A stretch of DNA of 64,000 bases from Paramecium tetraurelia (lineage: Eukaryota; Ciliophora; Oligohymenophorea; Peniculida; Parameciidae). Under the pieces are notes generated by a model. It worked only from the letters and a program-made list of their open reading frames with translations, was not told the origin of the DNA and ran no database searches. Position numbers and translations under genes: made by a program. The DNA is taken from the NCBI RefSeq assembly GCF_000165425.1, contig NW_001799001.1, positions 62,001-126,000 on the forward strand. Direction: 5' to 3'. This document shows, piece by piece, positions 8,015 to 64,000 of the stretch; position 1 is the first letter of the stretch, and the number at the start of each line of letters is the position of its first letter.

Positions 8015-9971
8015 TACATATCTAAATTGAATCTCTTTTTCTAAGCCAATATAACTGAAGTAAATTCATAGTTCATTCTTTGTCGAGTATCAATCTTACT
8101 TCTGAGAAGTAATTATTTGCTTTGATCTAATGGCTTTATTTCCTCCTTTCTAAATATTTTTTGAAAATCTTTATTAACTCAAGAACCGGAAATTTAATAT
8201 TTAATTTTCTATTACTTAGACATTTAACCTTAGAGAAATATGTAAGTATTATATACTTATTCTAAATTTAATAGATAATTTTTATCTTTCTTTAAAAAGA
8301 TAATATTTTATTTTTGAATTCTTAGCATCATTATTCTATTTCACCTCTCAAATAAACATCTCAAATCTTCCTTATTTAATAATGAGATCAGATTTCTTAT
8401 CTGAATTTCCAGCTGTTATTTTAATTCTAAGTTTATTTTTATTTAACAAAATATCTACTATGTTCTATTTATGTTTAAGACTTCACAAATTAATAGTAGT
8501 TCATTTAATTATTATTTATACTTCCTAAAACGGTCTTATTGAAATGATAAGGTATCTAGAACTTTCAAATTATTTGCAATGAATAATATCTGAAGCTTAA
8601 GATCAAATTTTTCCGCATTTGGCAGCTTAAAAATATTTCTATTACATTAAACATTCCAGTAATTGCTATTAAGAGTATTATTTGAGTCTAGCAAGCTGTT
8701 AATAATTTATATTTATATATTATAAAATATCTAGATCTTATAAATAATATAAATATTGACAATATAAACAATTCCAAAATCATTTTTTTCTTCATTATTA
8801 ATAATAAAATGTCTAATCAAAAGTAAACAAAATCAAAATAAAGCATAATAATTAGTAAAAAGGAAAAGTAGTTTATCGCAGGATCTGATGTTGTTTATAA
8901 TTCTCTCAAAAAATTAGTTGAATAACAGAAAGAATATGGAAATAAGCATAGTAATTATGTTTTGGGCATTTAATCAATTATTGAAGACTTGAGTACTAAA
9001 ACTTTTACAGTTACTTATAATTGTGACGAATCTGCTATCCCTTTATCAAAAATTTAATACTCTTCGCCAAAACATAAAATCTAGATATTCAAATATTTGT
9101 ACTTAATTTATGGGTTTTTAAACAAAGAAAAAATTTTGCATAGAAACCTTAAACCAAATAATATAATTTTCTATAATCAATAATTATTACTTACTGATTT
9201 TGGGTTTAAAATAGGTGATTGGTAGATTGATAAAATCAATTTTTTAGATGAAAATGATGGTACTCGAAAAGATAATATGTAGCCATATCTATCTCCAGAA
9301 CTTGCAAATATCATTGTCAGCACAAAAAGTTTTGGTCATAAAAGAGATGAGCTTCTAGCCAGGAGTAAATTATCTGTGTAACAACAGGATTAATTTGCAA
9401 TCGCAATTATGATGTTAGAGGTCTTTATTCCTTTAAAGAACAGAAACTCAGCTACTCCTAACGAAAGAAAATAGCAGATTAATGATATGAATTTATCAGA
9501 TGAGTTTTCAAATGATGTTGAAAAATTCATAAAAGAAACTATTTCCAATTTATTATATTCTAAAGATTTCAATGAATAAGAATTCGAAAAGCGATTAAAA
9601 ATGTTTATTGAAATTGAATAATAGGCTGAAAACTACAAAATCAATAAATAGGAATTAATGACATAAGAATATGACGAATAAGTCAAAAATGTCTTAGAAA
9701 ATAAAGATACTTAATTTAATTTAAAACTTCTATATCACTTTGGTAAAACAAACCTAAACTGGCTGTTAAGTAATATTGCACACAATTAACAAAATTAAGA
9801 ACTAATAACAGAGATGAGAAGATTTTTACGTCTTTATTCACAAATTGATAATTTTAGTCTAGATTAAAAAGATGAAAAATTTACAGATGAAGATTTATTC
9901 GTTTCTTTAGTTTATTTGGATGAAAAAATAGAAAATTTATAAAATTCATAAAATCAAAAACCTCATCTGAT
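8015..9971 (+). repeat. Segmental duplication, copy A
   Basis: About 0.8 kb of non-coding DNA plus the first ~390 codons of the pseudokinase gene are recognisably the same as 61973-64000, in the same orientation. The coding part is far more alike than the upstream part, which carries many small indels. The right-hand limit is set by the end of the window in copy B, so the duplication may be longer. Identity is obvious by eye but was not measured. Confidence 0.9.
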
Positions 9972-11118
9972 TATGTCTGAAGAAGAATAGGTATGTCGTA
10001 ATTTAAAACAATTTCTAAAGAACGAATATAAAAGATTGAATAATTTAAACAAGAATTAATTTAAATTTAATAAAATATAGGACAATGATGTTTAAATTCT
10101 CAAATTTGATGAAGGTGATTTTTAAAAAAACAGTGAAGTAATAAAAACAGAAACTGATGAAAGATAAAATGATAATGTACAAAATGATTAGTAACCTAAT
10201 GAAATTGAATAACAGAATGATTAACAACATAATTAATTTGAATAACAAAATGAGTAATAACCTAGTATACAGAATAGGTAATAAGATAATTAAAATGTTT
10301 TACCGAATATGTGGTAACAATCTTATATACTTATACCTATTTACTCAATAAATGAATAAACTAATCAATAAATACTTTTGGAAACAGTTAAAAGCAATTT
10401 CAATAGTTCTAGTCTGCAAAATTATTTCGAAATTAACAAATGCATATGCTCAAAGTAAATAGTATGCCGTCTTTTTAAATATAAAGATGATCTTAATGTC
10501 ATTTGTCTTGGTGAGATAAAAGGTAATGATTTTGAAGGAGAAGTAATGTAATTGGAAGTAAAGTAAATTAACCAGAATAATTCAATCAAAACGATATTCC
10601 ACTACGTTAATGTTAAAACAACATTAGAATATTGGAATATTTAAAATATAGAATAAAAGTCATCGATTTTTTAGTACTTAGAAATTAATTCTCAATTAAA
10701 GTTCAAAAAATGTAAAGATTATTAAGGTCAAATTCTAAATGGGAAGAAAAATGGAAAAGGCATAGAAAAAAATTTTATTGAAAATATGATCTATGATGGA
10801 AGCTGGAAAGACGGGTATATTACAGATGGAACTAAGAAATTAATAAATACTGATTAAATACTATAGAATGCTCCCTATAAATGGATAGGAAATTTCGAAA
10901 AAAATGAATTACATGGGGATAACATAAAGACATATTTATTAAACTATAATAAAGTAGTTTGGTTAGAAGGAAGATATCAAGGTGGTTTAAAAAAAGGGGT
11001 TCATACCTGTTACATGAAAAGGAAAAATAGATAGAACGATGAAATTGTTAAAATTTACAGCGCAATGTTCTTAATAATTTCAAACCAAGAACACGAATTT
11101 AAGTTGACTTGCAATTGA
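8809..11118 (+). CDS. MORN-repeat pseudokinase (copy A)
   Basis: Intronless, 769 residues. The C-lobe of a protein kinase is recognisable (HRNLKPNNIIF at residues 111-121, LLLTDFGFKIGDW from residue 127, YLSPELANI, then a helix QDQFAIAIMMLEVF), but the catalytic HRD aspartate is Asn113 and no normal glycine-rich N-lobe precedes it. A long Asn/Gln/Asp/Glu-rich middle follows. Residues about 635-735 contain MORN-like units (GQILNGKKNGKGIE, MIYDGSWKDGY). Catalysis is therefore unlikely; a scaffold or membrane-linked adaptor is an inference. The same architecture recurs at 50523-54650, and a close paralogue starts at 62804. The start is chosen as the first ATG of the long frame. Confidence 0.85.
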
Positions 11119-11683
11119 TTCTTAATTATTATCATTTTAATCAAATAATTATTCATTTATATATAAAATACATATTAATCAAAAATTGATATCGAGATTT
11201 AGGATTGATATTTTTATATATCTAAGAGATAGAGAAAGAGTTATCTCATAAGTTAAAATATCATATGTAATTGTTTAGAGAAACAGAGCAATTAAGCAAC
11301 CATACAGAAAAAATAGTATAAATTTGAATTTGATAATCATCTAAGAGAAAATATTGTAATCTACTAATTTCATAAAAATTTTGAGAGACTTTTTATATTC
11401 TCAAAGTATTCATTAGTTCATCTTGTAATTTTAATCATATAATATAAATTTTAATCATCTATGCTAAACTAATAGTGTAAAAAGGCCATTATTCTTTAGA
11501 AATCATAAAATATTATTGTACCATTTAACCTAACAAAAACTTCTATAGTCTCACATGCATTTATTAATTTCTAATCAAAGTTGAAATAATAAAAGAAATA
11601 TTGCTTTCAAACAACCTTTGCCATAAGTTAGATCCTTTAAAAGAGATAAACTTATAAACCATAAACTTTATGAGAATTTAATA
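11119..11683. other. Intergenic region, 565 bp
   Basis: AT-rich sequence after the pseudokinase. Short open stretches exist on both strands but none has protein-like composition. Upstream exons of the following uncertain plus-strand frame could lie here. Confidence 0.4.
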
Positions 11684-12118
11684 ATGCTAAGTTACTTTTC
11701 ATAGCCATTGTCTATACCTAAAGATGAATTTTAAGTAAATATTGTTTCTATTATACTTAAAATAATTGAAATAAAAGAAAGTAGCACTGAAGCATAAAAA
11801 TAATTTGAATAAGCAAACGATAGATGGAGAATATTAATTTTAAGAATTATTACAATAGTTTAATAAGGAAAAGGTTATGAAATTAGTCATTCAGGAATGC
11901 TTTTTGATCTTTACAATTCTTTTGGCCAACAGAATTTTGAATTTGACTAGAGTTGCGATTTATTGATTTTTCATCTCCAAGAACTTGAATTAATTTGGGC
12001 ATTGTTTTGTTCTGATAGTTTCCTCGGGTTAATTCATTTTTAAATAAAATAAATTAAATAAACAATCAAAAAATTACTGATGTTACTCTTGTCATTGAGT
12101 TTATTCTTAGTTCTTTGA
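11684..12118 (+). CDS. Uncharacterised protein (uncertain model)
   Basis: A continuous frame of 144 codons ending in TGA, with protein-like composition: an acidic/Gln-rich helix, then DRWRILILRIITIVQQGKGY and GMLFDLYNSFGQQNFEF. It runs to within a few bases of the opposite gene's stop. The last ~30 codons are read from AT-rich sequence and may not be real. The opposite strand is also open here (a 135-codon frame starting at 12015), so the coding strand is not certain. The frame stays open upstream of the chosen ATG, so further exons are possible. No family recognised. Confidence 0.35.
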
Positions 12119-12122
12119 GACC

Positions 12123-12659
12123 TCATAAAATTATTAATTATGTTACAATTTAAGAAGGATTTTCATTTTGAAATTCAATATTAGGATTGGACGACTAATT
12201 ATTGAAATGATTTTCTAGAGTTTATTTTTCTTGTTTTGGATCTTCCTTCTCAGTAGATTCTTTGTATTGATGTTACGGTATGATGTTGATTCTAATTTTA
12301 GGATATTTCTTTATTGGATTGGCTTTTTAAATTTGAACTATTTGGACATCTTGAGTTTGATAGGTTAAAGTATAAAGAACGCTTTCAATGGTAATAATAT
12401 CATCTGGTTTAACATATAATTCTTCTACGATTCCTGGTTGCTTATTGAAGATCTCAATTATTTTATTTTAAGCACTAATTTTCATAGCATATTAAAAGGA
12501 CCCCAAGGATTCTTTTTCTTCTTAAAATCAGTTAAGAGGATTACTAATGCATACTTCTACAATTTTGGCAACAATGCAACGAAGCGGTGTATCCAACAGA
12601 CTTTTGAGTGTCACATCTTCGGCCTTTTTATTTGATGCAAAGGCAATCTATTCTAGCAT
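12123..12659 (-). CDS. Uncharacterised protein, possibly Alba-like
   Basis: One 24-nt intron gives 170 residues. The N-terminal half (LKSLLDTPLRCIVAKIVEVCI, then KISAQNKIIEIFN and later DDIITIESVLYTLTYQ) follows the alternation of helix and strand seen in Alba-family nucleic-acid-binding proteins, whose later strands have just this hydrophobic pattern; the Gly-rich first strand of Alba is missing or lies in an unseen exon. The C-terminus is Gln/Asn/Glu-rich. An alternative splice would extend the protein to a TGA at 12066-12068, overlapping the opposite frame. The family call is tentative; the existence of a gene is more secure. Confidence 0.5.
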
Positions 12660-12846
12660 ACAATTGATGATTAAGATAATAATTATAATAATTTAAATGA
12701 TTTATAAGTTTAATTGAAAGTCTTAATAAAATCTTTAAGGGAGATTTAGGATTAATTTAGGATGGAAAATTCACGCAGTCAGGTTTGGAATGCCATTTTA
12801 ACTAAAAGAGCTCAAATTCAGTAAATAAATTAATGATATTATAATG

Positions 12847-13825
12847 TCAAGTATTTAAAACAGAAAAGCCATCAACTAGATTATAGGATATTTTATCAAA
12901 GGTCTTTTTAATTTCTTCATGTATTTTCGACAGGATATTGTTATTTTCTTTTGTCAATTCAAACATTTCTGCCTTTTGATCCATGATCATCTCGTCTTCA
13001 AACAAGGCATACTGTTTATATTTGAATAACAGATCAATAGGCAGATCATCTTATTGAAGATTAAAGATGGCGATTTAGTTTAAACATTAAACATGATTGA
13101 GTAATTTGACTAATTCTCTATTCTGAGACAACAGATCCACTTTCATTTTAGATAATATTCTAACATAAAAATCTTCCAAAGATTTGATTTCATCCTGAAT
13201 CTTCACTATATGCAAAATGATAGAAATACTTTGGAGAATTAGGTGATTTTTGAATTCTTGTCAGCCAATTCAGTTTCCAAGAGTTTGATTTGCTTTTTGT
13301 AATCCTACTTATCTTGGTTGGATTGCTTGTCAATTTTTTATTAGAGCTGTTAGTTATAAGTAGTCAACTATTAAATAGTCAATTTTAATTTCTTAATGAC
13401 TATATCCTTTTATTGAATTTGATCCTGCTGTAATTGGATTTGCTTTTTGAAAATCAAATTTTCTTGCTAAGTCTTGTAGCATAAAGTACCTACAAGGAAA
13501 CATTTAGATTTTGCATATCTAAGACTTTGAGTTCCTGCATCTATTGTTCTTGAACGTAATGCATTTTATTCTAGAAATCACTAACAGGCGAAGCAAAACT
13601 TCCAATCTTGGAGGAGACCTTTTAGAATTCTTCTTTGAAAGATGTGCAAGGTTATGTAGTTTGTTTCCCGTCGAGGGTTCTGTAAGTCTAACTTTTGTTA
13701 TCCGACTATAAGGTGATAATACGTTAGTTAGCTTTTGGAGTTCTAAACCACTAATCGTTTAAGTCTTTGTTAGCACTCTTTGTGGATGAACATTTGGAAT
13801 CATATTGAATATCAGTTTGCTTCAT
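12847..13825 (-). CDS. Coiled-coil protein, uncharacterised
   Basis: Two introns (23 and about 29 nt, the second ending AAG) give 308 residues. The first ~110 residues are Ser/Thr-rich and probably disordered; the rest is long amphipathic helix rich in Gln, Lys and Glu (QLQQDQIQQKDIVIKKLKL), consistent with a structural coiled coil. No enzyme motif is visible. It is transcribed away from the B-box gene over a 522-bp spacer. No family could be assigned. Confidence 0.7.
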
Positions 13826-14347
13826 TTTAATAAGTTGTTAATAATTTAATTTCTGAATTCAAATGTAACATAACCCTCAATAATAATAATATAAAAATAG
13901 ATTAGTCCTTCTCTAAATTAAATACCACACCAAAACTAATCCTTCCTCTTACAACATCATCACTTACCACTAAAAAGAGATTAATTCTTCTATCAAAGTG
14001 AATCTAATGTTGAATATATTTCTTACTAAAAATACATGATTTGAAGGAGATCATTTTTTTCCTTTCTTGTCATAACAAAGATTACATACTATTGAGAAGT
14101 AGAATACCAAACAGAATGTAATCCATCCTTAAAGTACTTAAAAAATTGAATACTTTTTAATAACAACCTGTTTAATCTTATCTATAATATTAAATAATCT
14201 AATAAATAAAATAAATTCTTTGCAAACCCCAAAATATCATATTTCAAAATAAATAAAAAAGTTGAGAACAGAAAGATAAACATCCAAAGGATGGCTTTGT
14301 ATAAAATAAGTTTCCATTTTTATTAATATCCGTTAAAAATATTAATA
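13826..14347. promoter_or_regulatory. Divergent promoter region, 522 bp
   Basis: Spacer between two genes that point away from each other, so it must contain both promoters. It is AT-rich with no coding frame; no defined transcription-factor motif was recognised. Confidence 0.45.
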
Positions 14348-15821
14348 ATGAATTCAAGTTAGAGACAACCAAGAAGTCGTATTTTTGATGTTGATTCACA
14401 AAGGCCATCTGATAGATCTAATACTCCTACAAGAGCATTATCACCACATCAAACTTCTCAACATGTTTAACCGTAATAATAATAACAATAACCAATTCCA
14501 ACCTTTCAACCTCAAAAGCTAAAACACATTCTGTATAATGCATAACAAAGTACTCCAATAGTTAGTTGCCATTACCATCCAGATCAATTCATTTAAAACT
14601 TTTGCAAAAACTCGTATTATTTTGAATAATCAAAATAGGGATTGTTTGTTGCCACTTTGCCCTATGTGTGTTACCATCCATTAAGATGATCATATAGGAT
14701 AAGAGTATGCACCTCATTTTGATTTGCTTGGCTATTGTCTTGGAGAACAATATAATAAGATAGTTGACATCTGCAATCTATTAGGAGAGGACATCGAGGA
14801 AGTTGTAGAATTAAAGAATCTTGTTAAAAATCATAGAGAAGTTTAGAAAAAGAAATTCTTGGAGGCAAAAGAACAATTCTATAAAGCAATTGATACCTTT
14901 ATGTAGAATCTGGAGAACAATCTAAATTCGCAATCTCTCAAACAAACCGATTAATTGCTCAATGAAATCAATTAATTTCATAGATTGGCCTATGACAGAT
15001 GGTTCAACATGCAAGGGAGATTGCAGAAACTCAATTCTGAGAAGTGTCTAAAAACACTCATTAAATCTTACAGATAGAGCAGACCAGAAGATATCTATTA
15101 ACGTTAACATGAAATGACCTTGTCATTTGTAGATTCAGTTAGGAATGATTTAGATCAAGTAGAAATTAGACCAAATTAATTATAAGTCATTCTTGATTAA
15201 TTGCAATCCTATATATTCATAACAAGAGATTAAGTTAAATAACCTAAACAAGCTTCACCCATCAAACCACAACAATAATAACCAATTATTAGAAGAGTCG
15301 TACATGAGAGACCAAACAGTCAGTAACATCACCATAATTCCAACTCTCCAATCCCTACTAGAGTTCTCCAAGGATTCCCTATTCTCTAAAAGTTTAATCC
15401 AGTCACTGCAATAGAAACTATGAATATGCCTCAATTACCACCTATTCCTACAGGGTTTCCTTAAGTCTTGCCATTTCCAAATCAACAATTCAACTTTTAA
15501 CCATAATCAATGATGTTACCTAACTCATAATTTATTCCACAACCCCTTCTTAATATGCCCTTACCATTCTAAACCCACCACCCATATCAGAATCCCCCAT
15601 AGTTACTTAAGCAAACTTAGTTACCACAACCACTATAGCAATATGTTTAGCCACTTTAGTCCACAGCAGCACATCAAATGCAATAATAAAGTCAGCCACT
15701 TGCTTAAATTAATATGAATCAACAGGAAAAACCTGGTGAAGTAATTGATTTGAAGACTAATAACAATCCACTAAGGATGGCTGAATAATATCATAATAAA
15801 TTGTTTAATTCTGGAGAATGA
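14348..15821 (+). CDS. B-box zinc-finger coiled-coil protein
   Basis: One 25-nt intron gives 482 residues. After a Ser/Arg/Gln-rich start, residues about 85-125 hold a B-box-type zinc finger (CHYHPDQFIQNFCKN, then CLLPLCPMCVTIHQDDH), recovered only when the intron inside it is removed. A coiled coil of roughly 130 residues follows, as in TRIM-like proteins, then a Pro/Gln/Asn-rich low-complexity tail of about 200 residues. No RING finger is present, so this is not a classical TRIM ubiquitin ligase. B-box plus coiled coil usually serves protein assembly. Function unknown. Confidence 0.8.
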
Positions 15822-15977
15822 TTCAACTATAGTTATATTTAAATCTATTACATTCATTTTTGAAATTATATTTGCAAATACATGTTCACGATTTTATTAA
15901 TAACATTAAATGATGAGTTTAATTAAGATATATAATATATTAATTTACTAAATCCGTAATCCTTAATTATCAATACA

Positions 15978-17396
15978 ATGCACAAGCTTAAGCTATAGTT
16001 CCTGAATTAAGACGTTGAAGATAATTACATCAAAGAACACTAATTTCCAAAAAGAAGATTTTATTTAAAAGTTAGTACCATAGCATTTCAAATTTTATTA
16101 TTTTTCAAGTTGATCGTTTCACTTATTGAACAAAATTATACAACTGTTTACCCTTTGCTTATTTCATGGGGAATTACACTTCCCTTCGTTTTATTTCCAA
16201 TCAAAACTGATTTTTTCATAAGAATGAGTATAAGCCTCCTTAATATTCTTTATATTGGCTATCTTCTATTTTTTGATCCGCAAGAAGAGGCTGAAATAAT
16301 GTATTTTAAGGGTTCCACTCAGATGGCTGCAAATGTTGTAAATATTTTTGTGCTTGAATTTATTGATTCATCAATCCTAAGTGTTAGTTTGTTAATAATG
16401 AGAGTTACCCATCTCATTTACTACAGTCCAAAACTTGATTTACCTACAATTGTTTTTGCTATAGGGATTCATGTTCTTTTAATTTTAATGATTTACGTTT
16501 ATCAAAAAGCATTGAGATCTTAATACCTTTTAACAAAAACCGATTAAAGATGGGAAAACATACTGAAATAAATTATTCATGATCAAAAATTCATACTCTT
16601 AAATTTTGACAAAGAAAAAATTTAATTCAAAAATATAAGTTCTACATTTTCAAAGAATATATAAACTTAAGATGAGGTGATAAGTTTTATTCGAAATTCA
16701 AAAATTAAAAACCTAACTTTAGAATAGTATCTTTATTAAAACGTGAATGACTTTTAATCCAATTGTATCGACAGTCTAAACAATATTATTATGGTTACTT
16801 ACGATAGATAATTCTTGAAACTTAATTTCTCAATATTTTTTGGAAACTAACCTACCATACTAATCTAGAAAGATATTCACTAATATGAATCAAATTTAAA
16901 AAGCAATTAAAAAGTAAATAAATTGTATCTCAACATCATCACATCTCTCATCAAAATTATCAAATAAAACAAAAAGTATGATGAAATTAAATTTCAAATA
17001 GTAGCAAAAAAACTATTTTTAAAAAATCTAATTTCAAAAATTGAAACTCACAATTTTTCATCCTAATTAATTAGCTTCAAAAAGATTTTACATAAGGCTT
17101 ACGTTCTAACCAATAAAAAATGTTAATTCTTGATATGTTAAGACTTTCAAATTACTACCATTCCTAAGATATTTGATTTATTTTTAGCGTTGTTAATGGA
17201 TTGTTCACATAATGAAATCATTAGCATCAAAGATTTGAGATCTGAAAACTAATAGATTGCTATCAAGTTTGGTGGGGCTTTAAATATCAAAAGGTTGAAA
17301 GCATATTTAGATAAACTAGAGTATTATTTCCTCCTGATTTTTCAAAATATCAAATATGATGATGCTTGTACTATTCATAATTATAAAAAGATGTGA
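15978..17396 (+). CDS. Multi-pass membrane protein, degenerate sensor-kinase-like
   Basis: Intronless, 472 residues. The first ~190 residues hold about six hydrophobic segments, as in the histidine kinase at 3045-5516. The cytosolic part has helices that could correspond to a dimerisation region and a late block (PKIFDLFLALLMDCSHNEI, then KDLRSENQQIAIKFGGALNI) at the place where an ATPase N box and following strand would sit, but no phospho-acceptor His, no clear G boxes and no receiver domain are visible. It may be a derived, inactive member of the ciliate histidine-kinase family; that relation is an inference from layout. Confidence 0.6.
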
Positions 17397-47254: not shown

Positions 47255-47288
47255 TTATATATCAATATTAAATTAAATTTTCCTTTGA

Positions 47289-50522: not shown

Positions 50523-53500
50523 TCAATAGTGAATAACTTTCTGTTGGATTTAGTTAAAAATTAATAGGTGTGATCCTATTGGCTTGCCCTTTTTATATTC
50601 TCCTTCCACTATCAAATCAAGTCCAGTTTAATGATGGTGAATGGCTTTAACATTCTTACCATGCTAAACATTATCCTAAAACTCACCTTCATAAGTTATG
50701 GACTTCTATCCTCCTTACCTTATTATCAATCTCCCGAAACCTACTCTCTGATTCTTCTTCCATTCTCCCTCATATTCAGATTAATCAGCATATACTTTCT
50801 TTCCTTACCCATGTATATATCCCATTATAAAATCCCCTTCATATATTTCATATACATTAAATTTATAAGCTTCCAAAAACAACTTTTCTCTGTAAGGCTT
50901 AAACCATTTCAATCTTGCCTTTCCATGCTTCACCTCAAATTCCTAGTTGTAATACCCCACATATTAAGTCAATAATCCTTTATCGTTCATCTCCAACACT
51001 TGCCCCCAATAAAACTTGCCTTTCTTAAAAAAGCCCTTATATATTGATGAAACTCCCCTCTTTCTCAAAATCCCCATTCCATCTGGATAATCATCAAGAG
51101 TTTCGCCTTTATATTTTGAACCTTAGAAATCATAAAATTGAAGTTTCCTATTCTTGAACTACTATGAAAAGTTATAACAATAACTAGGAACTAAATCAGT
51201 AATTTAATAAGCATCCTAAATTAATTAGAATTCGCGTATATATTTATTCTACGAGAGTAGTTCAGAATCCTTATCATCTACCAATTGTTTTATGGCTTTT
51301 AAGTAAGCAGCTTGGAAGGTTAGATAATTAGTATTTTTTGAAGATTACTTCGTACTCCCTTCATTACTAACTTCATCAATTTTATTGATTTAAATCTTAT
51401 TTCTATCATGTTTCCTCTTTATTTCATTAATGATATCAATCTATTCTTATATGATCTTTTTCTATCTTTGAGTTGATTTAAGTTTTAGATCTTTCAGAGC
51501 TGCCTTATACTTTTTTCTCTCCTCAGCACGTAATTTCCTAATAAGAGCATCCGGTAGCAAGTTATCAAAAGAAGGATTTCTTAAAAACTCAATAATTTTC
51601 TATTTATTTAATTCTTCTTGTTCCTTTAGCTTTATTTCTTTTAGTTTATTTTCAACAGCAGATTGTGAGGCTATCAGTCTATCCCCTTATTTTCTATCCT
51701 TGGGCACCTTGTCCAATAAGCGTAAGTAAATTTTTAGTTCCTCCTTATTAAGTAATTCGACTTACTGTTTTTTTAATATATTTTATAAAATTGGATTTTG
51801 TTTAAGCTTTTTTAAATCTTCCTTCACCTCTATTAATTTTTATATTAAATCGGTAACAAATTTATTACTCTGTATTTCTGATTTTAATACATTTAATTGA
51901 TCTTCATTAAGGTAAGTTAGTAGATGAGGATAATTCTAGATATTGTTATCATCAAAAAAATGATCTGCCTCTTGCTTTTTTTAAATAACATCTAGGCCGT
52001 CATTGACATCATCAATTAATTACAGCTATTCTTTTTCTTTCTAAATCACAATTTCATCAAACAATTATTGAATCTGCTTTTAGTTCTTTTTACCTTGTTC
52101 ATCCTCAAAGATATTAGTTGGATCATTAGGATGCTATTCCAAATGATTAAAAATTCTTTTAATCAATTTTAATTACTTCAAAATCTCATTTTAATCTTTA
52201 TCCTTTAACTGTATCACACCTTCATTTAATTAATTTTTTATTATTTTCAAAGAGACAGGATTTTCTTGTGATTCCTAATCTATGGTTTCTTTTGGATCTT
52301 CAAATTGTTGAATCTGTTAAAATGAGTTGTCTTTGTTGATAATTTCTTAATTATTTTATCTATTAGTCTTTTTTTTATCTGGAAATTATTACTAATTATT
52401 TTCAGTTATATCAATCAATAGTGAATAATCATCTTGCTATTGATTTTGAACAATTATAACACTTCCATCATCAATTTGATTTGCTTCATAATTTTCATCA
52501 TTAAATGGCTGCAAAACTTACAATGAATTTTTCATGATACTGATATTGCTTTTTTCTACTTAAGATTAAATCCCATTCTTACTTTAATTTGGATCATCAG
52601 TTTATGGAATCAATTTCTGTTTTGAGGGAATAATTATCAATAAATTAGTCTATTAGGAATTTTATTATTGAGTTTAGATTTCAGTTTTTGAATCTTTTAG
52701 TTCTAATAAATTAAATTCTTATTGACCAGATTAAATGATTTATTTCTATACTTGATTCTCCTTAGGAACTTATTAATCCTCACTTTCAAAATCATCGATT
52801 GCCAATATGTTAATTTATTTTACTTTATCTTAAATCTCTTTTTATCCTTGAAATGAATTCAATTATCCTATGGGTTTCTCTTCGTCATTTAAATTTAATA
52901 AATCATAATTATTTGAATTATTAAATTAAAAATTTTAATTATCTATATACGTAACAATTTCACTCATATTGCTATTATTCTAATTTACTTAAACTATTTT
53001 TTAATCTTCTAAAAACTAAAAGTTTTGAGTTTAATTAAACATTGAAATAAAGTTATTAGAAGTTTCTCCCTATTTATTATCATCAATTTTATCCAATTAA
53101 ATAATTTATAAACACCCTAATTATTGGTTATCATTTTTTGATTTGCCTCCTTAGGTTTATCCGATTTATATAACATCTTAAACTTGTTCTAGATTTATTG
53201 GAGTACCTTTATCATTTCTATCAGTTAACACTTGTAATTATGACTGCATTGGAACCAAAATAATATGGTCATTTTAAGTTTTAGTATCTTCAACTTGAAC
53301 TCCTTCAAATTGTTATTGATTGAACTCATAATTTACTACTGCTAAGCTTGGCTTGATTTAAGTAACATTATTCAAGTTTTATGGATTATCTTGAATTTAG
53401 AAAAATTGGAGAGGATTTAAAGAAAAATCATATTGTTGAGATTCTGGCTTAATTCTTGTAGGGCTCTATTAATTTTACCTTTAGGGTATTTAATTTGGTA

Positions 53501-54650
53501 TTTGCGTTAAATTATTTCTTTATTTGATTTCAGTGAAACCAAGAATATCAATTTAATAATTAGAACTAATAACACTAGAGGAATCGTCATCATCGAATTA
53601 ATCTTAAAGTTCTTGAATTGCTTAATTGGCAAGAAAATAATTTTAGGGTTTAAAAGATCTATATGTATTCTCATCCTCATCTGCATGGTCAAATATCTAT
53701 TTAATAGTAAAAGTTGATTCCATTTATGATTACGATTCAGTCTGATTCAATTTCTTTTATTAAAGAAATGTCTGATACACTAATTCTGGATCCTTCTTTT
53801 AGATCAATAGGGTAAAAATGACCTCAGAGAAGATGCCATTTTAATATTACTTAAGGTTCTCTATTTTCTAAAAAAGTTATTTGTTATTTAAACCATAATA
53901 ATCAGATAAATTTTTTGGCAATGTTTGATTGTTTTCAAATACTTAGATCATCATCATTGATAATGCCCAGATGTCAATGTATTTTCTAAATTTTTAATCA
54001 GAGACATCAAATTCGTTCCAAGAGGAAACTCTGAAGTAGAAATTCTCTTCCTCCATAATTTTCTAGTACTCTTCAGGGTAGAAGAATATTAAATTATTCT
54101 ACCATTCTTTCTCTGCTTATCCTGTATATTCCTTAAGGAAATTTTAATAATGAGTTCTTGCGCTTCCAAAATCTGTGATAAGCACTTATTTTTTGTAGTA
54201 TAGGATATTGTTTGGCTTCAAATTTGTATGCTCGAATTAGGCCTTAAACAAAATACAAGCAATTTATAACAGTTATTCAAATATTTAAGCTTGTTCTTGG
54301 AAACTAACAGTGTTATTGTTTAAATATTGAAATAAGGGTTCGATGTCATCTTCACAATCATATGCAACAAATAGATTTCTTTGGTGGTTGATAGTTTCAA
54401 CTGTGTAATTTAGGATAGTAAGCACCTTTCCTGGATATTTCGAAGAAAGTATCCTTTAATTGAGTAGTTCTTAAGTGATTTTTTCCTTCCAAGTGAGCCA
54501 TTCTTTTTTAGTTTCAAACACTCTTCGCTTTATAATTTTATTGTCTTTGGATTTAAATAACTTTGTAAAGAGAGAAGTTCTTTGTATTGGTTATATTTAT
54601 TCATGAAGGGATTTGAAGGTCTATAAAGTTATTTGGAAATTAGTATTCAT
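50523..54650 (-). CDS. Large MORN-repeat pseudokinase
   Basis: A single uninterrupted frame of 1375 residues, unusual here for lacking introns. Residues about 30-330 are kinase-like: a partial N-lobe (KIIKRRVFE, then a helix around EKITQELLNQRILSSKY), FEHTNLKPNNILYYKKQV with the HRD motif changed to HTN (Asn143 at the catalytic position), ITDFGSAR (DFG from residue 160) and KYIDIWALSMMMIQVFEN. About 800 residues of Asn/Gln/Asp/Glu-rich sequence and coiled coil follow. Residues about 1180-1370 are MORN repeats (YKGETLDDYPDGMGIL, YEGDFIMGYIHGQGKKVY, YEGEWKKNQRVGFGRL). The catalytic change predicts a pseudokinase; MORN repeats often meet membranes or dimerise. Confidence 0.88.
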
Positions 54651-55457
54651 ATCAAAATAATAAATATATTAATAACACAATTGTAATTCTCTCATTCATT
54701 AGAAAAAACATTATTTAAAATTACAATAATAAATCAACATTGAGCGTCAATCAAATAGAATAACAATTTTGAGAACAAATACTTTTACTAGTATAACAAT
54801 GAATCAAGAATTGAAGAACTATTAAAATGGTCAATATCATTAACAAAGTTCATAATCGAAGATAAAAATTAAATAAATTTGATAATTCTTAAGAGTTTAA
54901 AATTTATCTATAATTCTTGATTCTAGTATTTCTTTTAGTGAAATCAAGATATCTTTGTACTCAAATTAATGGAAAATTTACATTTTTCCATTATTAAAAT
55001 TCTTGTGATCCAATAAATAGTAGCTTAATTATTGAATAAAGTAAACATATGAATCTTATAAATGTGGATTCGATCACAAAACTTTATAAATGGATATTCC
55101 AAATAGCTATCATATTAATTTATACTCCCTTAAAATAGAATATAAATAGAGAGCCAAATCAATCGGGCTTTCTATTATTTTTGATGCAATGTTTTGCATT
55201 CTAGACCAATCGGATAGATTTCAAGATTGAATAATTGATTTTAATAGAAAGAGAGTTTGTATTATGAAGAATACGGAATGCTATGAAAGTGTTATCCATT
55301 TGAATTTTATTTTGACTATATTGAGATAATTTATAATGATATAATAAAATAGAGTCCCCCAAAAAAAGTTTACTCTCAATCTACATAACTCAGCGACAGA
55401 TTATATCGACAGAATTCTATCAGAGGTGTCAGGTATAGGTATTAATTGATAGAAGGA
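54651..55457 (+). pseudogene. Coding-like fragments, no intact gene
   Basis: Protein-like phrases occur in different plus-strand frames (SRIEELLKWSISLTKFIIED near 54800-54900; KCGFDHKTLQMDIPNSYHIN and SIGLSIIFDAMFCILDQSD near 55060-55230), but no in-frame ATG leads into the first and the pieces could not be linked by introns of usual form. A decayed gene is the likeliest reading; an intron-rich gene with poor splice signals is the alternative. The parent family was not recognised. The segment also holds the divergent promoters of the flanking genes. Confidence 0.3.
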
Positions 55458-57244
55458 ATGAAATGTCTTATTTTGGATTAGGAAACCATTGGCATAATTT
55501 CACTCATCTACTCTCAATCGCAAATCTTGAAGAAGGATGTCTATTTGATGGAAAAGATTGATGCTGCTGCTTCGACTAAATAGAAGCTTTAGCATATGAA
55601 AGTAATCTTTTTGATTCGACCAACTTAAGTATGGAATGCATTTTAAATCTTTAGGAAAATTAAACATTGCTCCTATAAGAAATAAAGGATAAGAGATTTT
55701 GTGAATACTACATCTTCTTCACCAATACTTTAAGCAATTTCTATATTGAATAATTGGCGGAAGCAGATGACTCCGATCTAATCAAACAACTCCAAGAAAT
55801 TTATTTGGATTACTACATAGTACAACCAGATACTTTTACATTAAACATTCCCTCTACGATTGCATTAACTAAAAGTGTTTCGCAATGGAATGCAAAGGAT
55901 GAATAACTATTTCAAAGAGTTCTTGAGGGATTGAGTGCCACAGTATATAGTCTAAGAAGAATTCCAATGATAAGATATCAAGGATCGAGTGAAATTTGTG
56001 CTAAATTGGCATAAAAGCTAAGTTAGACAATGAGGGAAGAATATGAACAATCCTAATCCTAGTTTATGCTTTCAAATTGTTTGCTCTTGATTCTCGACAG
56101 AAGAGAAGATCCAGCAACCTTGTTATTGAATCAATGGACCTACTAGGGTATGCTCCATGAGTTGATAGGAATCCAAAACAATAGAATCGATATTCGTTAA
56201 GGTCAAAAGGCATTGAATTAAGCTGCGGTATTGTATTGATACCTATAGTTAGAGTATCGGTAAAACAGATTCAGAAAATGAGTTTGTGATATCATCTAGT
56301 TTGGATGACTTTTTTGCTGAAAATTAATACTCTAATTTTGGAGAATTAGCATAAAATATAAAAGACTTTATTGACAAAGTTACATAACAGAAGAAAGAGA
56401 CAGTGCAAATCAATTCATTAGAAGATATGCAGAAAGCTGTGGATAAGATTCCAGAAATAAGGAAGATGAGTGGTAATTTATCGAAGCATGTGGCGTTGAG
56501 TTGTGAATTATCCAAATTAGTTGAAGAGAGACAATTATTAAAAGTATCTAAAGTTGAATAAGACATTGTCTGCAACGAAGCCAAGTCTGAACATTAGAAG
56601 GCTGTATTCTAGATGCTTGAAGATAGAACGATATAAACCTATGAGAAATTAAAATTGGTTATGTTATATGCATTGAGATATGAGAATTGTGATAAAATCT
56701 CAAGGATGAAGGATGTGTTGAGGGATTTGGGTGTTAAAAACAACAGTTTAAATTTAATCAATCACTTATTGGATTATTCTGGTAAGGCTAGACGTCAAGG
56801 TGATTTATTCAGTGATAAAAATTTATTATCGAAGGCATAGCAAAAGTTCAAATCTGTTTTTAAGGATGTTCCCAATATATACACTTAACATTAACCATAT
56901 TTTCTTACTATTATTGAGTAAATTCTCAGCAACAAAATTAAAGATAACGAATTTCCAGCAACAAATTTGCATTACTTCAGAGAAAGACCTGCTGAGATTA
57001 TAATATTTTACGTTGGTGGAACATCCTTTGAAGAAGTCAAAGAAATCGGGTTGTTGAATAAATAGCGTATATAATTTAGAATAATGTGTTAGCCAATTCA
57101 CCAAACATCTTGTTAGGGGGTACCTACATTCACAATTCAAGAACCTTTCTTGCTGAGATTTGTTAATTAGCATATGAGAACAACATTGACATAGTTGTAG
57201 ATAAGTCCAACCCTAGGAGTGATAACAAATTTCATAAATTTTGA
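55458..57244 (+). CDS. VPS45: VPS45, Sec1/Munc18-family protein
   Basis: Three introns (26, 25 and 26 nt) give 569 residues. SM-family landmarks run through the protein: MKCLILDQETIGIISLIYSQ, YLMEKIDA, MKVIFLIRPT, YYIFFTNTL, LLILDRREDPATLLLNQWTY, MLHELIGIQNNRIDI, then FFAENQYSNFGELAQNIKDF and IFYVGGTSFEEVKEI, ILLGGTYIHNSRTFL. The asparagine/tyrosine rich NQYSNFGE block and the LLGGT end are typical of Vps45, which controls syntaxin-16/Tlg2 SNARE pairing in traffic between endosomes and the trans-Golgi. It looks complete. With VPS28, it is the second endosomal sorting gene here. Confidence 0.93.
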
Positions 57245-57425
57245 TTGGAATAACATTGATATTATTTTAAATACACATTAAACTTATCAATAAGTATTAT
57301 TAAAGAAATAGAAGGGTTGCTTACTTTTGGAAAGACTGTTCAAATGATTGTTTTTAGATTGTTAAATCATTTACTTTAAAATACAACACACGGGTTTATT
57401 ATATCCAGAGAAAAAGCAAGGTTGT

Positions 57426-59437
57426 TCACATTTCTTAGCATTCAGAATTGCACTGTATCCAAAACTAAGAGCATTCTATTGAGTCGATATTCTATAAGTA
57501 TACCTTAATGTTCTTAATCTTGAATGTACTACTAGCAATATTGTTATTTTTATTATGAAGATCCAATATAACCAGTTCCTAACATCCTTAATCACTAACT
57601 ATAATAAAGCTGCTTACAACTAAAAGTATTGCTATTAATAAATATTTGGTTCATCAATTTACATATTTTCTGACTGGGAAGGCACTATATTGATTATTTT
57701 GTTATAATAATCCAAGTCTTGACCGTAAAGATCGAAGAAATCTAAAAAGTTCTTGCCAATTTCTTCGTTTTCGTTGTCCCTGATTCTTTTGATTTGCAAT
57801 AAAGCCAGAATCATAGTCAATATGCAATAACTATTGAGACCACCCTTATTAAACCACTTATTACTTAGTAGGAATTCAGTAAGTTGATTGATTTAAAGTA
57901 GAATTTCAACATTAAAGCTAAACTCCTAAATTATTTAAATTCTTTCTGAAACTCAATCATCGAATTAGCAGTCTTCCTTCCCGAGTGATCATTCCTACTT
58001 ATTGTAATATCAATTAGTTTATCTTAAAATTCTTTCGAACATTACATCTTCAACACAGGTTTCTTAGCATTTTCAATTACTTTGACATCCTTGATAAAGC
58101 TTGTCGTCTAAAACTAAATTCTATGATACTTTAAATTATTCTGCCAATTTGAATAATAGTATTATTTCTTCTGACTCAACCGTTTCGATAACTATGTCAA
58201 TATCAGAATCCAACAAATTCAGTCCTGTTTAACACGATCCATAAAGAAAGGCTCTAGATTTAAATTAGACATTTTGAACAGTCTAAGAAAGAGTATGATA
58301 AGAAATACCTCATCCACCAATTAGACTATCTTATCAATTATGGGTTTCTGCTCATCTAAATATTTACTCAATTCCTATGTAAATGTGTTGATTTCAAAAG
58401 TAAGTTGCCTAATAATCACCCAAATTTGTGTACTTAACAATATCATCTATACTAATTTTATGTTATGGCAATGTGTTTTTGGATTCACAAATCAATTAAT
58501 TATAAAATGATTAGTCTATAGCTATTGTCTCTGGAATCTAAACTTCTATTTCTTTTCTTTCCTTCATATACGTCTAAGTCTCCTATTCTCTTTTCTGTAC
58601 AATTTTATTCATTTTTGGTAGAATATCAGGCTCTCCTTCTTCTTATTTTCCAATTTTCTGAATATTTTCCTGCTATTCTTCTTATTTCTTTTTTCTATTT
58701 GGAGATTTTGTAAATAGAGTCTCTTCCATAATTAACAAATCTTTAATCTTCTCATTGGCAGCCACATCCAAAGGTGTTTGATTCTACTTATTTTTCCTCT
58801 GAAATAGAAACTCCCTCTGACAGATCTATTTAATTATATTTAATTCTCCTTTTCGAGAAGCCACATGTAAGGCTGTGTCACCGTTTTCATCTTAGCCAGA
58901 TGCTCCATATTTTTCTATGATTTTTGATGCAGTCTTATAATTGCCTTTTTGTAAGGACTTAATTAAATGCTAAGGTTTATCGAGAGACGTAATCTATAAG
59001 AGAGTTTCAACTATATCCCAATTATCTTATTCAGATTGGATTGCAATATCAAGTGCAAACTTAATTTATTTGGTTTCGATTCTCTCCTTATATTTGATTA
59101 TTTCATTCAGAATGCTTATCTTGGCTGTTCTTGCTGCATAAACGATGGCTGTGTTGCCCTAATTGTCCTTATAATTAAAATCAATGGATTGTCTTAAAGT
59201 TAGAACATATATACTTTAAAATTTATTGTATACATTGAAAGTGATCTTCACTATCTCTTGTGTTCTGTATGCATTCTAAAAAGGCTTACGAATAACTTGC
59301 TTATCCTATTTGATTCGTTCGAATAAATTCCTCCAATTAAACATATAATCCTACGAATCTATAACAGTTCGAATACCTTGATTTGTCAGATCGACAATTT
59401 TCTATTGATGGACCGTCGCCTATTGCATTTAGTGCAT
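57426..59437 (-). CDS. Ankyrin-repeat terminal nucleotidyltransferase
   Basis: Six introns (22, 26, 22, 25, 20 and 19 nt) give 625 residues. The N-terminal ~270 residues hold ankyrin repeats (KDNQGNTAIVYAAR and DENGDTALHVASRKGELNII are the clearest). The C-terminal half is a TUT/poly(A)-polymerase-like nucleotidyltransferase: LYGSCQTGLNLLDSDIDIVI (GS motif and two catalytic Asp), KLIDITISRND (third Asp), then GGLNSYCILTMILALL and LHNKNNNIASSTF, equivalent to the family's DPxNxxNNV(A/G)RS block. The catalytic residues are all present. Joining ankyrin repeats to such an enzyme is uncommon; they may pick out a protein partner or site. A 19-nt intron is among the shortest here. Confidence 0.85.
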
Positions 59438-59525
59438 TTACTTAATTTTAATTATAGCAAAATCTCAAAATGAAAGGTTTAATATGTAATAAGAAAAACA
59501 AAATTATAATTTTTTATTTTAATCA

Positions 59526-60195
59526 TCAAAATTGTAAACAGGATTCTTATAAAATAAGAGTCCTTTATCCATTGAGTAGGATATGAGCAAGTTCAAAGAG
59601 TCTCATATTCCCATCCAATTTCTAAGTCTTCACCCTACCAATCAAAATTGATAAATAGGGCACTTATAATTTGGCTCTATTGCTTCGATTCGCATAATTC
59701 TCATTGATCAGAACACTTAATTCCCTCACTCTGAGGAAGCATGACAGCATACTGATGTCAAAGGAGAATTCAAACTCGCTTTGATTCTTCAAGACAATGA
59801 TGTCAACTGAATAAACTGATTCCTTCCATAAATAACTTTCTTACCAGCTATTGCCTTTTTAAGGATCTCCAGACTTTAGTTTGTAATTCATCCATTTCAA
59901 TATACAGGGTAGGACTTAAAATTTAAATGAGTTACTACTTGATCCAAGCAATATTGCCAATCACTAATTTGTCATCCCTATATGATGGGTTTTTGGACTA
60001 CGAGTGATAATTGATCTCATCTTTTGTGGAAGCCCTTCTATAGACCATGATGTCCAAACTACGACAAAATTGGCTCGATTCATAACTAGTAGTTCTCCCC
60101 AAAGTGAAGTTAGAATCTTTAGGTTGAGCGTGGGAATGAAGCATTTAAACTTTTCTCAGTATGGAATACTCATTAGTTGCCACTACTTATTTCAT
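59526..60195 (-). CDS. Uncharacterised protein, 215 residues
   Basis: One 22-nt intron gives 215 residues. Ser/Arg/Tyr-rich in the first third (NFTLGRTTSYESSQFCRSLD, MVYRRASTKDEINYHS), more globular afterwards (SEFEFSFDISMLSCFLRVRE, LQVPYLSILIGRVKTQ). No membrane segment or enzyme motif. It ends 88 bp before the start of the ankyrin-nucleotidyltransferase gene on the same strand. No family recognised. Confidence 0.65.
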
Positions 60196-60352
60196 TAATT
60201 AAAAAAAATGACTTGTTGTAATGTTGTCAAATTATGAAATTAAATAAATATACTATTGTGTAATAGTTTAGAAATAATAAGGATAATTAAATGCATAGAG
60301 CCTTTAAGGACTTTAGGATTTTAAATTTAATATTTTAATTAATTAATAGAAA

Positions 60353-61132
60353 ATGTAAAACCTAAAAATTGTCTATTAATAAAAAATACACAAATTACCT
60401 TCCAGCGTAGTTACATACCAAGATATCATTGATGCGGTGAAGAAAATATATCCAAACTTAAGTTAATTTTATTTATTTACGATTATTCCTTGTACAAATC
60501 ATTTATCACATTTTTCAAAGAATTTCAAGAAATAGAAGAAATCAATTGCGAATTCAGTTTCTCCTTTCTAAAGAAAATTTACAAGAAAGAGGGATGGACC
60601 ACAATTAAATTTCTGGTTCTAGAAGACAAAAATTTAAATAATTTGAATGCAGAATCATTGAGCGTGTTGAATCAGAGCTCAATGTTTATCAATAGTTCCA
60701 GACTCGACTAAACTTAATACTCGCAATTAAATTAAACTAGGTTGAATAAAATCTATTATTCTTAGAATTAAAATAGAGGAAATCAAATAAAAAGTTGATT
60801 ATGCTAAGGATGAGAAACTCAAAGAACAAGTCAAAAAGATCTTGGATGAGAAGCTAAAAGAATATGGACTAGTTAAAAATAAGATTATCATTACAGAGAT
60901 AACAATCCCTGATAATTATTTTCAAGAAAAAAAGAACGTTTATAATAAGGGTTGTCTTAACTAGTAATTTTTATTGATAACCTAAGTTGGAAAGAAGAAC
61001 CTGAGGGACTATTAAACTTTGACGAATTTCAACCTTAAATTTGATCGTATTACAATTTAATTATTCATAATATTTAACAATTACATTCTTACTTTCAATA
61101 TAATTAAGGATATAGTATATTCAATAGATTGA
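60353..61132 (+). CDS. Uncharacterised helical protein
   Basis: Two introns (26 and 25 nt) give 242 residues. The N-terminal ~90 residues (KIVYQQKIHKLPSSVVTYQD, then FLKKIYKKEGWTTIKFLVLE) have a faint PB1 or ubiquitin-like look, followed by a charged coiled coil (KIEEIKQKVDYAKDEKLKEQ) and a hydrophobic, less convincing end that could include a membrane segment. The first intron begins GTGA and is the least certain step; without it the frame does not hold. No family recognised. Confidence 0.5.
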
Positions 61133-61972
61133 ACAAAATAATTAGTCAAGGTTATAAATAAAATATATCTGCGATTAGGTATTATTAAAAAGAGAAGACA
61201 TAAGAGGAGAACTAAACAAAGTCTTTGTATATAATTAATAATAATTATACAAGTAAATATGATATGTTTAGAAAAGAAATTTAAATAAATTTCTATTTAA
61301 TTATGATCTATAATCTAATACTAAAATAGTTACTGTTTCAAAATCAGATAAAATGTATAATTTAATTCCAATAGGATAAAAAATCTCTGATATTGTCATC
61401 AATAAAAATTGTTGGATTAGCTATGATAATTATAACTTTATAAAGATTTATTTTACACTTTAGGGATTTGAGTTCAAAATATTTCATTTCTTTATATTTA
61501 TATTAATTTATTAAGTATTCTTTTAACAATGGCCTTTTAAGATGTCATATTCCTTTTTCATTAATATAAAAAAATATTGATTCAAAAAATCCAAGTTTTT
61601 TTGACATCGCTATTCCTAAATTAATTGAATCACTATTTATTTTATTACTAAAAAATTGAATAAAATTTTTTTTTTTTTGCATTCTTCTTAAATTTGTGGC
61701 TAATTAAAACATATTAATCTTATCCTTTTATTACTCCTTTATAATGGGATATTTTGCACAACACAATATTTAACCATGCTGATGTATTTTAACATTATAT
61801 TTTTCTATTTAAATAAAGCAACTTCTTTGTCAATTTAAATGCATTGAAATAAATTATCATATTTCTATTAACTATTTGAATATTCAGTTCTATACTACAT
61901 CATTTATTATATCCTTAGAGTGGTTCTCCAGAAATACACAACTTTGTAAAGAAGGTAATTTTCTTTTTTCAA
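61133..61972. other. Intergenic region, 840 bp
   Basis: Very AT-rich, with a T tract near 61660-61678. One 81-codon plus-strand frame opens at about 61341 but is dominated by Ile, Phe, Tyr and Asn and resembles chance coding. Nothing recognised. Confidence 0.4.
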
Positions 61973-64000
61973 CATATCTAAATTGAATACCTTTTTCTAA
62001 ACCAATATAATCAGAAGCATAATTCATAATTTAATTTGTGTCGAAGTTTTATCTAAATCAATTGTTACTTCTGATAAGTAACAATTTGATATAATAAGTT
62101 ATTTCATTATTTTAAAATATTTATTGATGATCTTTATTAAGTCAAGATTCTAAAGTTCAATATTTAATTTTCTATTACTTAAGAAATTCGGTTTTTAAGA
62201 AATAAATAAGTATTATATACTTATTCTAAATTTAATAGATAATTTTTTTATTGTGCTATCCTTTCTTAAAACGATAATATTTTTATTTATTTATTCTTAG
62301 AATGATTATTCTATATATTTATTTATTTATTCATGATATTGATTCACTTCTTCAATAACCATCTCAAATCTTCTTATTTAAGTATGAGATCAGATTTCTT
62401 ATCTGAATTTGCCAACTGCTATCTTATTTCTAACATTATTTTTAATTGACAAATATCTACTTAATTCAATTTATATATAAGACTTCACAACTCAATAGTT
62501 CATTGACTAATTATCTATACTTCCTAAAACAGTCATATTGAAAAGATAAAGTATTTATAACTTTCAAATTATTTACAATTATGAATTTTACGAAGCTTAA
62601 GATTTAAATTTCCCCGCATTTTACAACTTAAAAATATTACTATTAGATTAAACATTCCAGTAATTGTTATTAAGAGTATTATTTGAGTTTAGCGAGCTGT
62701 TAATAATTTATATTTATAAATTATGAAATATCTAGATCTTGTAAATCATAAATATATTGGCAATATAAAACCAATCTTAATTTTTTTTTCTTTATTATTT
62801 AAAATGAATAATCAACAAAAATTCCACCAATAAACTAAACACAACAAACATATAAAAACTAATTAATTACTAATAAGGATAAAATTGAAAAGAAGTTTAT
62901 AGCAGAATCTAATATTTAATTAGAATGCCAAAAAGAATTAGCTTAATTGTAGGAAGAACGTGGAAAGAAGTATGGTAATTATGTTTTGGGCATTTAAACA
63001 ATTCGTGATAACTAGAAGACTAAAACTTTTACAGTTACCTATGGTTGTGACAAATCTGCTATACCTTTATCAAATATTAGATTCTCTTCGCCAAAGCATA
63101 AAATTTAGATATTCAAACATTTGTACTTAATTTATGGGTTTTTGAACAAAGAACAAATGTTACATAGAAATCTTAAACCCAATAATATAATTTTGTATAA
63201 TCGATAATTATTACTTACAGATTTTGGTTTTAAATTAGGTAATTGGATGATTGATAAAATCAATTTTTTAGATAAAATTGATAGTATTCAACAGGATAAT
63301 ATGTATCCATATCTATCTCCAGAGATTGTAAACATTCTTGTCAGCTAAAATAGTTTTGGTCATAAAAGAGATGCTCTTAAAAACAGGCATTAATTATCTG
63401 TGAAAAAGCAGGATTAATTTGCAATCGCAATTATGATGTTAGAGGTCTTTATTCCTTTAAAGGATAGAAAATTAGCTACTGCTAAGGAAAGATAAGAGCA
63501 GATTAATGATATGAACTTATCCGACGATTTTTCAAATGAAGATGAAAAATTCATAAAAGCAACAATTTTAAGTCTCATATACTATAAAGATTTTAATGAA
63601 AATGATTTCTAAAATACATTAAAGGTTATTAATGAAATTGAATAATAGAGTGAAAATTACAAAATAAATAAATAGGAATTAATGACATAAGAGTATGATG
63701 AATAGGTCAAAAAAGTCTTAGCAAATAAAGATACTTAATTTAATTTAAAGCTACTTTATCATTTTAACATCAAAAACCTTATCGATTGCTAAAGTATTGC
63801 AAACAATCAAGAAAATAAAGAACTAATAGAAGAGATTACAAGATTTTAACTTCTCTATTCCTAAATTGATGACTTAAGTCTAGATACAACTGAGGAACAT
63901 ATTAATTAATTTACAAATGAAGATTTATTCATTTTATTAGTTTATTTGGATGAAAAAATAGAAAATTTACAAGATTCTTAAAATAAATTACCGCATCTGA
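61973..64000 (+). repeat. Segmental duplication, copy B (truncated by window)
   Basis: Same order and strand as 8015-9971: a diverged ~0.83-kb upstream region, then the pseudokinase coding sequence. The copies are 54 kb apart. The upstream parts differ by many small insertions and deletions, while the coding parts are nearly collinear. The window ends inside the coding part. Confidence 0.9.
62804..64000 (+). CDS. MORN-type pseudokinase, copy B (partial, possibly frame-broken at start)
   Basis: Close paralogue of the gene at 8809-11118, running off the window end after about 395 codons, so the MORN part is not seen. It has the same altered catalytic loop (HRNLKPNNIIL) and LLLTDFGFKLGNW, and the frame stays open from about 62815 to the end. 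However, the ATG at 62804, which matches the start of copy A, is not in frame with that coding stretch, and no other suitable ATG or normal intron was found. Either the first exon is split in a way not recognised, or this copy has lost its start by a frame change. Confidence 0.6.

Follow-up and report, generated by a model that had tools for sequence, protein, structure and literature searches.

A Paramecium gene family with asparagine at the kinase catalytic-base position and putative MORN-type tails

Introduction

Kinase-like proteins with asparagine at the aspartate position of the HRD motif are already known. In the accessible portions of their descriptions, asparagine replaces this aspartate in HER3, in the JH2 domain of JAK2 and in primate PSKH2 (PMC9988210; PMC4718504), a further Asn-bearing pseudokinase is on record (PMC10952953), and MORN motifs are joined to kinase domains in Apicomplexa (PMC3227725). 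Here we describe a family of genes from the ciliate Paramecium tetraurelia in which loss of the HRD aspartate from an N-terminal kinase-like head is combined with a putative MORN-type tail. Three members lie in the 64,000-nucleotide stretch that was analysed, positions 62001-126000 of contig C48 (the window), and the family was followed through the 69.07 Mb and 231 contigs of the genome.

Ciliates have very large kinomes, and silencing or tagging their genes is routine; which of these kinases are inactive by design is, to our knowledge, mostly untested. With a fixed inactivating change, a common architecture and measurable purifying selection, the family offers a clear example of a pseudokinase retained for something other than catalysis.

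Results

Eight genes lack the HRD aspartate

Searches with single proteins as queries (members 1 and 2 and two relatives) against this genome only identified eight genes: members 1 (P0001), 2 (P0002) and 3 (P0003) of the window, two genes on contig C37 (C37a at 138.6 kb and C37b at 204.5 kb), one on C196 (108.8 kb), and a pair on C164 (C164:120 kb, at 118.6-121.0 kb on the minus strand, and C164:99 kb, at 99.4 kb). None of the eight retains the HRD aspartate, and seven carry asparagine in its place: HRN in P0001, P0003 and C196, HTN in P0002 and C37a, HNN in C37b and HQN in C164:120 kb. In C164:99 kb the motif is lost, and I-F-Y aligns at the HRD position. In a tree with 17 other kinases of the genome (those available rather than a kinome-wide sample), the eight form one clade with support 100/99, in which the C164 pair appears as two long branches meeting at the base. 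The clade has no resolved sister among these 17, and kinship with NAK kinases (AAK1/GAK) is not singled out. Given the complete absence of HRD, HxN in seven of eight genes, a single clade and the purifying selection on the P0002 head described below, the asparagine is a fixed trait within the family rather than local drift; the motif that bears it is kept between members only 23-29% identical.

Head and tail lie within one open frame in all eight genes (frames of 682 to 1375 codons). The family proposed in a preliminary description of this DNA is real, and its supposedly sizeable extent amounts to the eight genes found here; this count is a lower bound, with only the best candidates scored, and leaves out weak places on C143, C155 (83 kb), C51, C134, C25, C222, C65, C108, C218 and C67. 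Four candidates proved not to be members: those on C172 and at C164:112 kb read HRDLKLEN, C214 reads HMDIKPEN and C183 reads HRDLKPEN. On viral contigs, 74 stretches fit the pattern and none was confirmed as a relative.

The window is read with genetic code table 6 (TAA and TAG as Gln), which yields 48 frames of at least 200 amino acids against one with the standard code. Its members comprise the following features.

8809..11118, plus strand: member 1 (P0001), 769 amino acids, with kinase-like head, Gln/Asn-rich middle and MORN-like tail; one open frame under table 6
9139..9162 (C48:71139-71162), plus strand: HRNLKPNN of member 1, Asn for the HRD Asp, from the pattern search
10720..11028 (right end by eye), plus strand: MORN-like repeats of member 1, degenerate, below the Pfam cut-off
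50523..54650 (frame open from 54695), minus strand: member 2 (P0002), 1375 amino acids, uninterrupted frame, with a duplicate on contig C37
53706..54650, minus strand: kinase-like domain of member 2, residues 1-315
54207..54230 (C48:116207-116230), minus strand: HTNLKPNN of member 2, from the pattern search
51141..53705, minus strand: long Asn/Gln/Glu-rich middle of member 2, fast-evolving by dN/dS against the C37 copy
50526..51155, minus strand: MORN tail of member 2, three stretches, 40.6 bits with PF02493
62836..64000, plus strand: member 3 (P0003), kinase-like head and part of the middle
63163..63186 (C48:125163-125186), plus strand: HRNLKPNN of member 3, from the pattern search

Translation with table 6 bears out the earlier reading of HRN or HTN, LKPNN and a kept DFG in all three window genes. 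The start previously given for member 3, 62804, is an ATG off the kinase-like frame, which has its own ATG at 62581 and runs past the window to C48:127007, with the 5' end unsettled. Its tail is homologous to that of member 1, and its head reads HRNLKPNN and DFG. Member 2 had been described as having no intron in 1375 codons: the frame is indeed uninterrupted, but it contains three GTA..TAG stretches, 27 or 33 nucleotides long, each of which would preserve the frame if removed.

The kinase-like heads keep part of the catalytic machinery

With at least one canonical catalytic residue missing from every member, the family falls by sequence among the pseudokinases. Nor has any of the eight proteins a recognisable glycine-rich loop: GxGxxG was not found within the first 120 residues, an upstream exon being possible where the 5' end is unsettled. 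The NN of the KxNN box is present in 8/8, preceded by lysine in seven and arginine in the eighth, and the DFG aspartate in 7/8, the eighth reading IFG. Four residues after the alpha-C glutamate, a hydrophobic spine position in kinases, all eight carry glutamine. The beta3 lysine and the alpha-C glutamate are each found in five members and are both missing in P0001, P0003 and C37b, in a part of the N-lobe where the alignment is less sure; member 2 has both, together with HTNLKPNN and DFG, and no GxGxxG. Of 16 invariant columns in a seven-member alignment, eight fall in the stretch from the catalytic loop to DFG.

All seven heads scanned match the Pfam Pkinase profile PF00069 at E<=1, the best at 4.2e-14 (C164:99 kb stood outside the scan). 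The head of member 1 alone scores 30.3 bits against a cut-off of 31.7, and whole P0003 scores 22.5 bits. We infer that the heads adopt a eukaryotic protein kinase fold, for which the structure models are weak; that of whole member 1 (predicted local distance difference test score 32, predicted template-modelling score 0.22) was not used. Two observations serve as leads only: the first Foldseek match is AAK1, and outside the family the C196 head best matches two HRDLKLEN/CDFGSA kinases of the genome, which we take to be of NAK type.

Asparagine at this position arose more than once in the genome

The pattern H-x-N-hydrophobic-K-P-x-N occurs at 19 places in the 69 Mb (control pattern, 3), its H-x-D counterpart at 1243 (control, 1). 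Three of the 19 lie in the window and five in the family, and only these five family members read KPNN. KPNN alone is not unusual, since 5 of 100 H-x-D places among those listed read HRDLKPNN. Dropping the proline gave a looser pattern that was too noisy (331 places; control, 255). Ten of the 14 non-family HxN places were opened (C42, C79, C171 and C190:227 kb were left out), and by eye nine are kinase-like of other kinds, either other kinase types (C180, C18, C20, C50 and C206) or kinase-like fragments (C190:384 kb, C155:6 kb, C47 and C182). The tenth, C186, does not resemble a kinase. Four of the nine kinase-like places, HRN-bearing and CAMK-like or CMGC-like by eye (L065, L067, L068 and L070), were put in the tree and fall outside the family, indicating repeated origins of the HRD-to-HRN change in the genome.

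The conserved residues also bear on whether the head has been turned to a reaction other than phosphotransfer, with the asparagine and the KxNN box in its active site. The NN pair persists in all eight members, even where HxN and the DFG aspartate are gone, and half of the invariant columns cluster in the catalytic-loop/DFG stretch, both of which speak for it; yet no glycine-rich loop is recognisable, and KPNN also occurs in HRD kinases, as noted above. We regard such a conversion as very improbable.

The tails are probably of one MORN-like type

With the Pfam MORN profile PF02493 (cut-off 22.5 bits), four of the eight tails score at or above the cut-off (P0002, C37a, C164:99 kb and C196, the last exactly at it), while P0001 (12.9 bits), P0003 (18.1 bits) and C164:120 kb fall below. 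The C-terminal MORN repeats previously assigned to both complete window genes therefore hold for the gene at 50.5 kb, at 40.6 bits, but at 8.8 kb the profile does not reach its cut-off. A phmmer search of the member 2 tail against solved MORN1 structures gave a best E of 3.4e-9.

Models built from some tails were also scored against the others. A model of the P0002, C37a and C196 tails gives 20.2 bits for P0001, 31.4 for P0003, 17.7 for C164:120 kb and 30.1 for C164:99 kb; four of the five tails thus exceed 200 shuffles each (best shuffle 6.8 for P0001 and 7.4 for P0003), and C37b, at only 0.3 bits, does not. The C37b tail reaches 22.6 bits with a P0001/P0003 model. A model of the C164 pair gives 13.4 bits for P0002 (best shuffle 10.8) and 14.8 for C196, and one of P0001, P0003 and C37b gives 16.3 for P0002, 17.6 for C37a and 18.7 for C196. 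The Pfam scores and these mixed cross-matches make it likely that all eight genes carry one type of tail, strongly degenerate in some. One search matched 35 places in the genome, 29 of them by the MORN part only; of these 29, one (C181) was read for a kinase-like head, and the family count leaves the other 28 aside.

Head and tail of the member 2 pair are under purifying selection

P0002 and C37a stand in matching surroundings. A gene that we take to be Vps45-like flanks each copy on one side, with 90% identity in its largest piece; the matching pieces on the other side include one of 83 codons with 90% identity. All are pieces of six-frame translations, and identity is much lower in some of them. 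Between the two copies, the ratio of nonsynonymous to synonymous divergence (dN/dS) is 0.064 (0.029-0.121) in the head, 0.543 (0.405-0.705) in residues 316-850 of the middle, 0.239 (0.078-0.373) in residues 851-1170 and 0.130 (0.039-0.232) in the MORN part. The codon of the asparagine itself differs synonymously (AAT/AAC). Because synonymous distance is saturated in the P0002 head, we substituted the dS of the Vps45-like neighbour, whose largest piece (260 codons) has a proportion of synonymous differences of 0.423, or ~0.62 corrected; the ratios become ~0.28 for the head, ~0.92 for the middle (316-850) and ~0.32 for the MORN part, by hand arithmetic that assumes equal age of the genes. Two of the three pieces of the Vps45-like gene have dN/dS of 0.073 and 0.068. 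The third, of 77 codons, was left out of account; its value of 0.940 at 48% identity probably reflects an intron or frame edge. We conclude that in the P0002 pair purifying selection acts on head and tail, and that the middle drifts.

Duplications around the family genes

Members 1 and 3 are local duplicates with ~0.8 kb of upstream DNA in common.

8016..11163, plus strand: duplicated region, its second copy running from 61972 past the window end; 79.9% identity in block 8016-10076 and 75.7% in block 10336-11163

The first block includes ~0.8 kb upstream of the member 1 gene. The upstream DNA (8016-8800 and 61972-62800) is conserved, the figure of 79.9% covering upstream and coding sequence jointly, not apart. 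At the left end of the window, positions 676-2913 match L056:1-2360, beside C37b, in translated pieces up to 99% identical, yet among the matches listed no family member occurs on C48 to the left of member 1, itself 6-8 kb from this stretch. The contig begins with CCCAAA-type repeats.

Contig C123 (14.6 kb; L055, C123:3000-9500) is a near-copy of part of C37 and includes a near-copy of C37b with a broken frame; it may represent an allele, an assembly error or a case of young decay. On C37, a kinase-like frame reading HCNINPQN and DFS (L057:1117-2118, minus strand) adjoins C37a, the copy of member 2; no window piece matches this frame among the matches listed.

Discussion

A probable non-catalytic scaffold and its alternatives

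Taken together, the sequences suggest that the family probably consists of non-catalytic scaffolds in which a long linker joins a pseudokinase head to a MORN tail for dimerisation or anchoring. The N-terminal kinase-like domain, its catalytic base and glycine-rich loop lost, would be retained as a docking surface; the Gln/Asn-rich linker that follows is probably disordered; and the C-terminal MORN-type repeats may serve as a protein-protein module. With HRD and GxGxxG absent from all eight members, a non-catalytic role, proposed in the preliminary description, appears likely, and phosphotransfer has presumably been lost. That base and loop are missing family-wide while the P0002 head stays under selection favours a docking function, and the retention of a dead head in this pair points to a scaffold, not an enzyme.

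MORN repeats are often called membrane modules, and the family had been thought to be tied to membranes through them. In the accessible parts of its description, however, MORN1 shows no binding to membranes or vesicles, although it interacts with single phospholipids; it dimerises through its C-terminus, and MORN repeats are there called dimerisation and protein-protein modules (PMC7725318). The membrane tie is accordingly not upheld, and dimerisation or anchoring, perhaps at a cortical, ciliary or vesicle structure, is preferred.

Several observations weigh against this proposal. Only as isolated heads, not as whole proteins, do P0001 and P0002 match Pkinase at E<=1. Pfam finds no MORN match in the C37b tail, the C164-pair tail model misses P0001 and C37b, and the P0001/P0003/C37b model misses C164:99 kb. 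Members 1 and 3 have an overall dN/dS of 0.564, with the head at 0.727 (0.453-1.145) and indistinguishable from neutral, and the P0002 pair, at 52% identity compared with 90% in the largest piece of the Vps45-like neighbour, has diverged far faster. These last points are what one would expect of decaying duplicates, in which a kinase inactivated in one ancestor left copies drifting to pseudogenes; the shared upstream flank of members 1 and 3, the loss of both HxN and the DFG aspartate in one gene and the broken frame on C123 fit the same account. Eight long open frames, the low ratio in the member 2 head and a motif kept between such distant members are difficult to reconcile with it, and we consider general decay improbable.

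Against the scaffold also stands the retention of the DFG aspartate (7/8), the Asn171-equivalent (8/8) and the beta3 lysine (5/8), through which nucleotide binding or weak activity may persist, and very low activity has been reported for the Asn-bearing pseudokinase domains of HER3 and JAK2, in the part of the source at hand (PMC9988210). The heads might thus bind nucleotide and switch shape, as ATP-sensing allosteric pseudokinases in the manner of HER3 or JAK2 JH2, or keep low residual kinase activity. The catalytic-loop lysine (7/8) and the invariant second asparagine of KxNN agree with this, and a JAK JH2 domain with Asn for Asp166 binds nucleotide, according to the portion of its description available (PMC4718504). 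Set against these are the universal absence of GxGxxG, the glutamine at alpha-C Glu+4 in every member, the three members without beta3 lysine and alpha-C glutamate, and the gene without the DFG aspartate. We hold this alternative to be unlikely; the ATP-sensing role suggested earlier has the kept Lys, Asn and DFG as its sole basis.

Extending the scaffold proposal, one may picture an old, undescribed ciliate family in which the pseudo-active site has been rebuilt as a ligand or partner pocket and the MORN tail oligomerises, so that a dead kinase reads a signal on a cortical or ciliary assembly platform. Such a picture would take in the lost glycine-rich loop, the glutamine in a regulatory-spine position, the asparagine for the base and the invariant NN, but is speculative and, as a whole, rather unlikely to be correct.

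Comparison with known systems

The combination of parts, their order and the family-wide loss were not found in the literature, as covered by titles and the beginnings of abstracts, with most subscription papers outside; nor does such a family appear in the accessible parts of PMC12399478, PMC10952953, PMC3823935 and PMC3227725. The earlier suggestion that the combination is undescribed is therefore consistent with our searches, but the asparagine itself is a known pseudokinase substitution and occurs in unrelated kinases of this genome. HER3, JAK2 JH2 and PSKH2 share with the family the asparagine at the HRD aspartate, and we know of no MORN tail in any of them. As far as the available portions of their descriptions go, PSKH2 retains the remaining residues that coordinate ATP, and JAK2 JH2 still has a glycine-rich loop, though partly degraded, whereas no such loop was found in any of the eight Paramecium proteins; the asparagine of PSKH2 is recent and confined to primates, in contrast to one common to highly divergent members. 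Replacing that asparagine by aspartate did not activate PSKH2 (PMC9988210).

Among protists, the NAK-type AAK1L1 of Trypanosoma brucei likewise reads HRN in a pseudokinase, but has DFN where the family has DFG, and in the text at hand the MORN repeat appears only in the reference list (PMC10952953). TKL kinases of Cryptosporidium and Plasmodium resemble the family in that a single protein bears both MORN motifs and a kinase domain, but in the reverse domain order, and loss of HRD is not mentioned in the accessible part of the source (PMC3227725). Within the Paramecium genome, MORN repeats adjoining a kinase domain were sought by eye among the matches listed, and the two cases opened, on C166 and C181 (L077 and L078), are a pair of MORN-AGC kinases, the type assigned by eye. 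These are like the family in having MORN repeats next to the kinase domain, and unlike it in placing MORN first and kinase last, with the glycine-rich loop and YRDLKLEN intact; MORN repeats alone thus do not predict a dead kinase. The MORN1 proteins of Trypanosoma, Toxoplasma and Plasmodium, whose solved structures the member 2 tail matches, offer a parallel for the tail. T. brucei MORN1, in the portion of its description available, consists solely of MORN repeats (PMC7725318), to which the Paramecium family adds a kinase-like head.

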